From NCBI RefSeq assembly GCF_014648275.1, contig NZ_BMQU01000027.1, positions 1-43,589 on the forward strand: a DNA stretch of 43,589 nt, written 5' to 3'. Positions 12,683 to 26,743 of the stretch are shown here, in pieces. Positions within the stretch are counted from its first letter, which is position 1, and each line of letters begins with the position of its first letter. This DNA is from Pseudomonas laurentiana (GTDB taxonomy: Bacteria; Pseudomonadota; Gammaproteobacteria; Pseudomonadales; Pseudomonadaceae). The notes under the pieces are model-generated. The model was not told where the DNA came from, searched no databases, and saw only the letters and a program-made list of their open reading frames with translations. The position numbers were made by a program, and so were the translations under genes.

Positions 12683-12794
12683 GTGCTCAATAACCCCAAA
12701 CGTATTCCAAATCTGTTTAAAAATCGACCAACATGCAGTGGAATAGCGGCAATCCTGACCAATACTTGAACTGTTAGCGCGACATACCCCCCCC

Positions 12795-12892
12795 AAGTGT
12801 TGCGCTAATAAAGGTGCGAAAGGACTGCGTGCCTTTGTTTTACTCCTAATGGTCTTAACCCGGATTCACCCCCCAGAACCCGGGTTTTTTTT
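12795..12892 (+). ncRNA. rgsA: RgsA small regulatory RNA
   Basis: Lies between the convergent class V aminotransferase and tatD genes. Three parts are visible: a hairpin (12810-12817 with 12829-12836, loop containing AAGGA); an unpaired, pyrimidine-rich stretch TTTTACTCCTAATGG (12838-12852); and a terminator hairpin AACCCGG/CCGGGTT (12857-12886) followed by an 8-T run. Positions 12835-12852 match the antisense of the acpP ribosome-binding region (18881-18899) with only one base inserted. In P. aeruginosa the Hfq-dependent, RpoS-controlled sRNA RgsA is encoded next to tatD and represses acpP and fis, so locus and target both agree. The 5' end is estimated; a weak CATACC -10 and a run of eight C lie just before it. 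The rest of 12683-12790 shows no gene. Confidence 0.8.
12857..12892 (+). terminator. Rho-independent terminator of rgsA
   Basis: A 7-bp stem AACCCGG/CCGGGTT with a 16-base pyrimidine-rich loop, followed by eight T on the plus strand only. The T-run direction shows it ends a rightward transcript 175-210 bases beyond the aminotransferase stop, which supports a separate sRNA gene. The poly-U tail is also the usual Hfq contact. Confidence 0.85.
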
Positions 12893-12901
12893 GCCTGCGA
12901 T

Positions 12902-13690
12902 TCAGCTCGCAGCAACACGCGCCAAAGGAAACAGACGCTTGAAGTTGGCCGTGGTCTGCTCTGCAAGACGCTCATAGGTTTCACCGCGCAGCATGGCGAC
13001 AAACTCCGCCACTTCCCGCACATACTGCGGCAGGTTTGGCTTTCCGCGATAGGGAATAGGTGCGAGGTACGGCGAGTCGGTTTCCACCAGCAAGCGATCC
13101 ACCGGAACCTGGCGCGCCACATCGCGCAAGGCATCCGCATTACGGAAGGTGACGATGCCAGAAAGGGAAATATAGAAGCCCAGGTCCAATGCGGCCTTGG
13201 CCATGTCCCAGTCCTCGGTAAAGCAATGCAGGACACCAGCCTGCGGCAAAGCCGCCTCACGCAGCAGAGCCAGGGTATCGGCGCGCGCCGCACGGGTATG
13301 CACGATCACCGGCTTGCCCGTGATACGCGCGGCATCCAGGTGCAGACGAAAGGAGTCCTGCTGCAACTCGGCAGCCTCAGGCTCGTAGTGATAATCCAGG
13401 CCGGTTTCACCGATTGCCACGACATGCGGGTGATTCAGCTCCTGCAGCAACCAGTCCAGGGCTGGCTCGGCACCGGGTGCCAAGTCTAGCGGGTGCACCC
13501 CCACCGAACAGTCGACATCACCATAGCGCTCAGTGACCGCCTTCACCGCCGCAGCATTCTGCGCACTGACGCCAATGCACAGAAAGTGCCCGACGCCCCT
13601 CGCCCTGGCAGCATCCAGAGCGGCATCCAGCGAGCCCTGGCAGGCAGTAAGGTCGAGGCGATCAAGGTGACAATGGGAATCTACAAGCAT
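12902..13690 (-). CDS. tatD: TatD-family metal-dependent hydrolase/DNase
   Basis: A 262-residue TIM-barrel hydrolase of the TatD family (3'-5' exonuclease/DNase in E. coli). The first metal pair is in MLVDSHCHLD (His6, His8); other ligand-bearing segments are GETGLDYHYEP, VIVHTRAA, LHCFTEDW and ETDSPYLAP. The start is set at the ATG at 13690, directly before the metal-binding motif; a longer reading from 13915 runs through holB in another frame. It is the last gene of the leftward cluster. In PAO1 pilZ lies between holB and tatD; here only 37 bases separate them. Confidence 0.93.
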   Translation of the reverse strand: MLVDSHCHLDRLDLTACQGSLDAALDAARARGVGHFLCIGVSAQNAAAVKAVTERYGDVDCSVGVHPLDLAPGAEPALDWLLQELNHPHVVAIGETGLDYHYEPEAAELQQDSFRLHLDAARITGKPVIVHTRAARADTLALLREAALPQAGVLHCFTEDWDMAKAALDLGFYISLSGIVTFRNADALRDVARQVPVDRLLVETDSPYLAPIPYRGKPNLPQYVREVAEFVAMLRGETYERLAEQTTANFKRLFPLARVAAS

Positions 13691-18640: not shown

Positions 18641-18877
18641 TTAAGCCTGGTGGCTGGTGACGTAGTCGATAGCTGCTTGAACAGTAGTGATCTTCTCGGC
18701 TTCTTCGTCAGGGATTTCGGTCTCGAATTCCTCTTCCAGAGCCATCACCAGCTCAACGGTGTCAAGGGAATCGGCACCCAGATCTTCGACGAAGGAAGCA
18801 GTGTTCACTACTTCTTCTTCTTTAACGCCCAGTTGCTCGGCGACGATTTTCTTGACGCGTTCTTCGATGGTGCTCAT
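18641..18877 (-). CDS. acpP: Acyl carrier protein
   Basis: Carries growing acyl chains on 4'-phosphopantetheine. The 78-residue acidic protein has the attachment site DSL (Asp36-Ser37-Leu38) within [18 protein letters not shown]. It lies in the canonical fabD-fabG-acpP-fabF order. A gap of 196 bases before it contains a likely promoter of its own, matching the high demand for this protein. The leader has ATTAGGAG and, nearer the ATG, AAGG. The leader segment at 18881-18899 is complementary to the sRNA at 12835-12852 and is the expected RgsA target. Confidence 0.98.
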
Positions 18878-18880
18878 ACC

Positions 18881-18899
18881 TTGTTTTCACTCCTAATGG
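18881..18899 (-). promoter_or_regulatory. RgsA pairing site over the acpP Shine-Dalgarno
   Basis: The 19 bases covering the acpP AGGAG are complementary to 18 consecutive bases of the small RNA at 12835-12852, with one bulged base (18888). The continuous part is 11 bp (18889-18899) and 7 bp follow after the bulge. Pairing would cover the ribosome-binding site 4-22 bases before the start codon. RgsA repression of acpP is established in P. aeruginosa; the exact duplex here is my reading. Confidence 0.75.
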
Positions 18900-19831: not shown

Positions 19832-20770
19832 TCAGGCCAGCGCCGCACGGGTGGCGGCGACAGCGTCTGGGGTATTGAGGTTATAGGTGGTCACACCGTC
19901 GGCGCAGCGCTTGTTCAAGCCAGCCAGGACCTTGCCCGGACCGCACTCGACCAGCGACGTAGCGCCTTGTGCCGCGAGGTACTGAACGCATTCAACCCAA
20001 CGCACCGGCTTGAACAACTGCTCCAACAGGTCGCGCTTGAGCGTCTCCAGATCAGCAGAAACAGTCGCGTTGACGTTCTGCACGACCGGGATCTGCGGCG
20101 CCTGCCAATCGATGGCCGCAACCGATTCAGCGAACCGTTCGGCAGCCGGGCGCATCAGCTCGCAGTGCGACGGCACGCTGACGGGCAATGGCAAGGCGCG
20201 CTTGGCGCCACGCGCCTTGCACCCTTCGATGGCGCGCTCGACAGCCGCCTTGGAACCGGCGATCACGACTTGACCTGGAGAGTTGAAGTTGACTGCGCTA
20301 ACGACTTCGCCCTGCGCCGCTTCCGCGCACACAGCGATGACATCCGCATCATCCAGACCCAACACCGCCGCCATGGCGCCCTGCCCGGCCGGCACGGCCT
20401 CCTGCATCAGCTGACCGCGACGTTCGACCAGTTTCACGGCATCGCCGAGGGTCAGGCTACCCGCGGCCACCAGGGCGCTGTATTCGCCCAGGCTGTGACC
20501 GGCGACAAATGCAGGACGCGCGCCACCCTCGGCCAGCCACAGGCGCCACAGGGCGATCGAGGCGGTCAGGATAGCCGGCTGGGTTTTGTCGGTTTGATTG
20601 AGTTGCTCTTCCGGGCCCTGCTGAGTCAGTGCCCAGAGATCATAGCCCAGAGCCTCGGAGGCCTCGCGGAAGGTATCGATGACCAGTGGGTACTGGGCGC
20701 CCAGCTCGGCCAACATGCCGAGGGACTGCGAACCTTGACCCGGAAAGACGAATGCGAGGGATGCAGACAT
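19832..20770 (-). CDS. fabD: Malonyl-CoA:ACP transacylase
   Basis: Moves malonyl from CoA to ACP. The 312-residue protein has the N-terminal FPGQGSQ, the nucleophile Ser93 in GHSLGEYSAL, and His202 in VPSHCELM. The ATG at 20770 has AGGGG upstream; an earlier in-frame start at 20833 adds a leader not seen in the family. It lies between plsX and fabG, with 129 bases after plsX that hold no other gene. Confidence 0.97.
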   Translation of the reverse strand: MSASLAFVFPGQGSQSLGMLAELGAQYPLVIDTFREASEALGYDLWALTQQGPEEQLNQTDKTQPAILTASIALWRLWLAEGGARPAFVAGHSLGEYSALVAAGSLTLGDAVKLVERRGQLMQEAVPAGQGAMAAVLGLDDADVIAVCAEAAQGEVVSAVNFNSPGQVVIAGSKAAVERAIEGCKARGAKRALPLPVSVPSHCELMRPAAERFAESVAAIDWQAPQIPVVQNVNATVSADLETLKRDLLEQLFKPVRWVECVQYLAAQGATSLVECGPGKVLAGLNKRCADGVTTYNLNTPDAVAATRAALA

Positions 20771-20899
20771 TGAACAAGCCCCTAATGATCTTGTCGTCGG
20801 AAATTGAGCGAACAGCCGTAGGACTGATCGCAAGAAACTGAAAATTGGATGGTAACGAGAACCAAGCGGTCACATTTAACCACTTCCTTGTCGATATGC

Positions 20900-26060: not shown

Positions 26061-26743
26061 CGCCGCCAAAAGCGGCTGGCCAGCGGACCAATGGCTTTGA
26101 GCCGGCCCTGACCTACGCAATTCTCGAGGACGCGAGGCCGTCCGACGGGGTGTTTGCCAGTTTACAAAATGCCTGGATTAGCCACCAGCGCCGACGAGAG
26201 AAGACCGATAAAAAACAAAAAGAGCGGTGCATTACCCTCCCTTCACGTTTTTTTTCGATGCCGCCCGTCGGTGCAATCGCTTCCACGCAGGTGTGGTGAA
26301 CGCTTCGGAAATACAAGCCTTAGCCATAAATGCGCGGGCTCCCGTACGGAGCCGGCGATAAATGCAACCCGTTGCGGATTCAGCGCGCGGCAGCACCCGA
26401 ATTATCAGGGATACGTGTAGGGTGGAGATGCACAACCGTCGGACCGTGTAGTAATGCGTCCGGTCGACAGGCCTCTACGGGCCCGCTCGTCCAGACCCGT
26501 TCTTGATCAAGATGCCCCCGTGGCATCCATGGCCGAAGGCTGATTCCTCCTCCTGACTGAGTGCATTTGACACCACAGCTAGCAGGACGCGTCGTCGCGA
26601 CTTCGGCAGCACTGGATTCCAGTCAGGCCGAATCTCGCTAGACACGGGAGTGGCCCGCCACCCCTGACGCACCCTGACACCGACCGTGAGAAGTCGTGTG
26701 TGCCGAACGCCGTTTCCGGCAGCCCGGAAACCGACGGTACTAC
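26061..26743 (+). ncRNA. Long structured 5' leader of rne (rne-II-like regulatory RNA)
   Basis: This 680-base stretch has no convincing gene and follows a good promoter. It contains several clear hairpins: 26337-26353 (GGCTCC/GGAGCC), 26511-26527 (GATGCC/GGCATC), 26611-26623 (ACTGG/CCAGT), 26650-26661 (GTGG/CCAC) and an 8-bp stem 26712-26731 (GTTTCCGG/CCGGAAAC) that ends 12 bases before the start codon. E. coli RNase E controls its own message through such a leader, and a conserved structure named rne-II has been described upstream of rne in Pseudomonadales. I infer this leader is the same kind of autoregulatory element; I did not align it to the published model. Confidence 0.65.

Follow-up and report, generated by a model that had tools for sequence, protein, structure and literature searches.

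The 43,589-nt window analysed here (the whole stretch of Pseudomonas laurentiana contig NZ_BMQU01000027.1) carries beside tatD a small RNA (sRNA), a segment of which is antisense to the ribosome-binding site of acpP about 6 kb away. The locus raises the question of which sRNA this is, whether its match to acpP and the closeness of the two genes are meaningful, and whether the same segment could act on further genes, including others of the fatty-acid cluster.

The rgsA locus and its surroundings

The Rfam search gave a match to RF00628 (RgsA) at 12688-12883 on the plus strand, with 189.1 bits against a gathering threshold of 88.4. The neighbouring open reading frame tatD, the last gene of the cluster (12902-13690, minus strand, start chosen at MLVDSHCH), converges with rgsA on the plus strand, as is characteristic of the RgsA family, and tatD is described as the rgsA neighbour in PMC2375449. 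In addition, both the conserved seed ACTCCTAATGGTCTT and the CCCGG hairpin with its U-run are present. These results confirmed that the feature is the known Pseudomonas stress sRNA RgsA, the identity proposed in the preliminary description.

The limits given there, 12795-12892, proved too short. The Rfam model extends about 87 nt further upstream than the true RgsA start and includes the promoter (PMC3709562). We placed the start near 12774 because a -10-like element, CAATACT, is located at 12760-12766 (plus strand) and because the RgsA length reported in the literature is 120-122 nt (PMC2375449 and PMC5458535 among the sources). Therefore, the 5' hairpin at 12775-12807 belongs to RgsA, and the transcript probably spans about 12774-12892 on the plus strand, ending in the U-run of a rho-independent terminator with a C-rich loop (12857-12892, plus strand, from sequence and fold), consistent with the RF00628 match, the three-hairpin fold and the published length. 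The -10-like element is conserved in the alignment and, as judged by eye only, resembles the published rgsA -10 (PMC2375449); the literature suggests an RpoS-type promoter. The conserved upstream sequence (URS) TATTCCAAATCTGTTTAAAAA at 12703-12723 (plus strand) is among the best-conserved parts of the locus in our alignment. It is named in PMC2375449, which reports no similar sequence, and no second copy was found in this genome at up to 3 mismatches. The URS is nearly intact in L053, a genome of genus g6 whose RgsA has lost the seed. Elsewhere in the window, an rne-II element (RF01756, 245.9 bits) at 26411-26734 is an ordinary known feature.

RF00628 matches were present in 269 of the 298 genomes of the family and in 14 of its 19 genera. 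An RgsA match lay downstream of tatD in 76 of 80 named tatD loci; among the four loci lacking it, two contigs stop within 507 nt, and no match was found downstream of the Thiopseudomonas and Atopomonas tatD loci. The acpP gene was located upstream of tatD in 75/80 loci, with 5,957-6,576 nt between the acpP start and the tatD stop (5,975 in the window), and at L071, L101 and L139 about 10 kb of sequence upstream of tatD yielded no plus-strand hit for acpP. The 6-kb distance between regulator and target, to which attention had been drawn earlier, is thus present but represents the ordinary conserved order of the fab cluster, and we consider the proximity of rgsA and acpP an old gene order because this spacing is so constant. 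If the closeness mattered, read-through of the acpP-tatD operon could yield an antisense RNA that titrates RgsA. The convergence of tatD and rgsA within about 10 nt (12892-12902), a tatD end 5 nt from the RgsA match and an RgsA terminator that lacks a U-run on its reverse strand would suit such titration, whereas the gap of 0.3-1.6 kb between tatD and rgsA in Stutzerimonas and some other loci argues against it, and we regard it as improbable.

Complementarity between RgsA and the acpP leader

In the predicted fold, RgsA begins with a 5' hairpin whose loop is C-rich, followed by a second hairpin, a stretch that is mostly open and the terminator. The segment antisense to acpP (12835-12852, plus strand) had been described as unpaired between two hairpins. 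Most of it is indeed largely open, but positions 12835-12838 are paired within the second hairpin (predicted probability of being unpaired 0.01-0.22), and 12845-12846 tend to pair weakly with 12851-12852 (0.28-0.36). The seed core is the near-invariant block ACTCCTAATGGTCTT at 12842-12856 (plus strand), which is exact in 74 of the 77 aligned RgsA copies (76 named loci and the window). The outer hairpin loops at 12787-12794 and 12869-12874 are C-rich (CCCCCA-type), are kept in most aligned relatives and look like a potential further site at which G-rich mRNA could bind; the latter loop is shortened or gone in Stutzerimonas loci.

The open reading frame of acpP, encoding acyl carrier protein, occupies 18641-18877 on the minus strand, preceded by the leader with the Shine-Dalgarno (SD) region at 18881-18899. 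The RgsA segment reads TTGTTTTACTCCTAATGG and the leader region TTGTTTTCACTCCTAATGG; the two are the same except for one extra C in the acpP copy. The previously claimed 18-nt antisense match, with one bulge and covering AGGAG, therefore agrees with the sequences, and at this level the complementarity is confirmed in this genome. No other match with at most one indel was found on either strand of the window, self excluded. When CCATTAGGAGTAAAAC was searched in the 5.2-Mb genome at up to 3 mismatches, it hit the sRNA itself (0 mismatches), acpP (2) and four more sites (3), and its reversed control gave 14 hits; the acpP leader was the best non-self match found, at 2 mismatches ungapped. The duplex of RgsA with the acpP start region (our standard target, -45 to +30 around the gene start) had an energy of -24.3 kcal/mol, which was reached by none of 309 sampled gene starts and by 2 of 15,960 arbitrary 75-nt windows from the sampled stretches. 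The accessibility-corrected energy, -13.5 kcal/mol, was better than that of all 308 sampled gene starts. This sample, 400 kb of the 5.2-Mb genome in 20 stretches of 20 kb each, rests on home-made gene calls, some of which are apparently spurious. Taken together, the genome and window searches and the samples of gene starts and 75-nt windows bear out the earlier view that chance is an unlikely source of the match.

The complementarity could still be a mere consequence of SD and anti-SD motifs with no regulation in this species, and two lineages that conserve the core of the acpP leader with no matching RgsA seed (see below) would fit this. Such an explanation is nevertheless highly improbable: the match extends well past AGGAG (18/19 positions), no sampled gene start is as good, and repression is published for P. 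aeruginosa. In that species RgsA represses acpP and fis (Lu et al. 2016, as cited in one research paper and two reviews: PMC9308961, PMC8395346 and PMC5686131), and the published repression of acpP is post-transcriptional. One of the reviews has the repression act via the conserved nt 71-77, and both reviews add dependence on Hfq. The control of rgsA by RpoS is reported in PMC2375449 and PMC3709562, and stationary-phase expression and Hfq binding are published for other strains (PMC3709562 among the sources). The literature agrees with the earlier statement that P. aeruginosa RgsA is RpoS-dependent, Hfq-bound and targets acpP and fis. Because this repression is published, the acpP finding is not new; the interpretation is supported as biology already known in another species, and the value of the acpP part lies in confirmation in another species and in comparison across many.

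The comparison revealed that AGGAG is near-constant in the acpP leader and that the bases around it differ, the leader reading CCATTAGGAGTGAAAAC, CCATTAGGAGTTAAAC, CCATAGGAGTG, CCACTAGGAGTT or CCAATAGGAGTG in relatives. Because the leader varies in this way while ACTCCTAATGGTCTT is near-invariant, the 18-nt length is lineage-specific: the match is real here, but many relatives keep the AGGAG core with varying flanks. We considered covariation between seed and leader and rejected it: almost none was seen, owing to the near-invariance of the RgsA block. In a swap test with 38 distinct RgsA-acpP pairs drawn from 72, which ignores kinship, native pairs scored only marginally better (-19.1) than swapped ones (-18.8), and 2.15% of the swaps were as good. 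Moreover, TAGGAGTGA is retained in the leader of two genomes of genus g17, which has ACTCCTAACGCTTTT as its RgsA block, of two g6 genomes that lack the seed and of one g8 genome whose block has an extra base. Since TAGGAGTGA stays where the seed has changed or been lost, conservation of the acpP leader alone is not evidence of pairing, and this retention counts against any strong claim of RgsA-acpP co-evolution. The RgsA-like locus of the g6 genomes (L215 and L216; also L052 and L053) keeps the family match and the terminator with the seed lost, and fis and acpP remain in these genomes. In L205, L206 and L207, which carry the changed g17 block or the g8 block with the extra base, the targets may differ. 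Lineages with a changed or lost seed are natural test cases.

Pairing with fis and a candidate site at fabD

The comparison also suggests a reason why the acpP leader drifts and the seed hardly changes. The second published target, fis, pairs with a whole stretch of 22 nt through its codons 6-13, GAGACTTTAGTGAGTGGAACAA, with a duplex energy of -22.5 kcal/mol, so that complementarity to both acpP (-24.3 kcal/mol) and fis, a feature of RgsA membership, is present here. The accessibility-corrected energy for fis, -12.7, lies beyond all 308 sampled gene starts, with fis scanned to +60 and the rest to +30. In the -45/+30 region the duplex-only energy was -15.1, and 35 of 309 gene starts were as good; the site reaches deeper into the gene. 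Among 23 genomes, 10 had fis pairing at -20 or lower, 11 had weaker pairing (-11.6 to -17.2) and 2 had no seed, and in one g9 genome, where RgsA has UUGUUCCACUC, the pairing reached -30.1. The left flank of the seed, UUGUUUUACUC, fits fis GAGUGGAACAA with no bulge but needs one to fit acpP GAGUGAAAACAA; the match of this flank to fis may be why the acpP duplex is imperfect.

The right part of the block, GGUCUU, hardly pairs with acpP beyond GG. The near-invariant block ACUCCUAAUGGUCUU also fits the SD region of another gene of the cluster, which we take to be fabD (malonyl-CoA:ACP transacylase) from its protein sequence. The fabD open reading frame lies at 19832-20770 on the minus strand, with the start ATG at 20770-20768 as read from its leader. 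The leader/SD region AAGATCATTAGGGG at 20779-20792 (minus strand), a candidate RgsA site by genome search, duplex and accessibility, would pair without interruption over 14 positions, including two G-U pairs, with RgsA 12843-12856 (plus strand), so that the SD would be covered.

The genome search with the whole block AAGACCATTAGGAGT gave 28 non-self sites at 2-3 mismatches, acpP and fabD included, whereas the reversed control gave 138 hits; these sites are thus not enriched, and few of them precede a start codon as judged by eye. Uninterrupted 14-bp pairing including G-U occurs at three places in the 5.2 Mb besides rgsA, one of which is the fabD SD; with five hits for the reversed control of this pattern, the number does not exceed chance, and what is notable is the position alone. 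The other two sites do not resemble gene starts: the C10 site sits inside a 475-codon open frame (TTG at 10 nt), and at the C26 site an ATG at 12 nt opens only 8 codons. The accessibility-corrected energy for fabD was -12.8 kcal/mol, equal to that of fis and matched by none of the 308 sampled gene starts (best -11.2, mean -1.3, SD 3.5); by duplex energy alone 2 of 309 were as good. Four other gene starts showed fair pairing with RgsA (L178, L189, L193 and L195, accessibility-corrected -9.4 to -11.2), presumably an algU-like, a glmS-like and a MaoC-like gene, named from their N-termini, and one unclear call.

We scored 11 cluster genes with each genome's own RgsA (53-77 genomes per gene, the window included); sppA, with one row in the duplex-only set, was left out of the accessibility comparison. 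Accessibility scores of -10 or lower were obtained for acpP in 53/72 genomes, for fabD in 34/72 and for fabG in 2/71, and in no genome for tatD, holB, tmk, mltG, pabC, fabF, plsX or yceD. Of 70 genomes, acpP scored best among the cluster genes in 58, and fabD ranked first or second in 49. Duplex-only energies of -18 or lower were found for acpP (59/72), fabD (37/72) and fabG (7/71), and at most twice for the others. Of the 11 genes compared, acpP and fabD are thus the only ones to stand out. These genomes are related to one another, and a single large group of species accounts for most of the fabD hits.

It is an evenly balanced question whether, with RgsA-acpP pairing real, the fabD match is just a by-product of an anti-SD-like core meeting a purine-rich leader. 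A shuffled block reached -20 with one or more of 10 cluster genes in 175 of 3000 trials, and in 336 of 3000 if CTCCT was kept (5.8-11.2%), which speaks for a by-product, as do the 2/309 gene starts that equal fabD by duplex energy and the isolated strong scores of fabF (-23.2, L217) and plsX (-18.4, L202). For fabD itself the corresponding shuffle counts were 5 and 14 of 3000. Pairing with fabD is also weak in several groups assumed from species names, namely the Stutzerimonas, P. alcaligenes-like, P. syringae-like and P. putida-like loci (-6.3 to -13.3), and across the remaining genera read the site scores less well (-5.1 to -15.5); in g17 the fabD leader retains AAGATCA although the RgsA block no longer fits. 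On the other hand, the pairing is uninterrupted and uses GGUCUU outside the anti-SD core, the other two 14-bp sites of the genome lie inside a 475-codon frame and ahead of an 8-codon one, and none of the 308 gene starts matches fabD when accessibility is considered. The motif [AG]AGAYCA was present in 37/72 fabD leaders and in no other cluster gene, the looser RRGRYYR occurring also in yceD (10/72), tmk (4/73), fabF (4/72) and tatD (1/77), and L129 and L132 retain the fabD pairing with a different base.

We therefore treat fabD as a specific extension, a candidate RgsA target whose chances, judged from sequence, lie a little below even. No link between RgsA and fabD was found in the searchable literature, and Lu 2016 or Lu 2018 may mention one. 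In a P. aeruginosa study fabD served as the qPCR reference, with an RgsA change of about four-fold (PMC5458535); the fabD site is predicted in other species. Should fabD prove to be a target, a single stress sRNA would slow one pathway at two of its steps.

Proposed mechanism and known systems

The reading that we favour, and hold with considerable confidence, is that RgsA carries a composite seed and, under RpoS and with Hfq, acts as a brake on acpP and fis, and possibly on fabD. As published for P. aeruginosa, RgsA would be transcribed in stationary phase in response to RpoS and bound by Hfq, and by base-pairing over translation start regions it would block translation. For this genome, the analysis shows the match in sequence, how accessible it is, how far it exceeds the sampled gene starts and that the block is conserved; transcription, dependence on Hfq and RpoS, repression and the fabD step we infer. 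The open region that separates the second hairpin from the terminator would serve as a composite seed roughly 22 nt long (12835-12856): its left 18 nt would cover the acpP SD with one bulge, the whole 22 nt would pair with fis codons 6-13, and the right 14 nt may pair with the fabD SD. As a consequence, fatty-acid synthesis (ACP, possibly FabD) and Fis would be braked when growth stops. In the full three-target version, the entire 22-nt seed would pair with fis, its left part with acpP and its right part with fabD, RgsA would repress two cistrons of one cluster, and the bulge would be the price of the fit to fis; this version is tentative, with the balance leaning somewhat against it. If true, it would constitute a direct RpoS-controlled brake on ACP and on the enzyme that loads malonate onto it, and it would cover this and many related Pseudomonas species.

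The closest known system is RgsA/P16 (RF00628) of P. aeruginosa, P. fluorescens CHA0 and P. syringae DC3000, with which the sRNA described here shares the family, the length, the convergent tatD, the conserved seed and the complementarity to acpP and fis. It differs in that the acpP duplex is longer here than in many relatives and in the predicted fabD site, which is weak in the three g12 genomes compared. More generally, stationary-phase Hfq-binding sRNAs that block ribosome-binding sites form a broad class. RgsA resembles this class in its open single-stranded seed, the predicted occlusion of the SD and the terminator with a U-run. In contrast to it, however, the composite seed of RgsA is predicted to engage three targets through different parts, and two of these predicted targets share one fatty-acid gene cluster.
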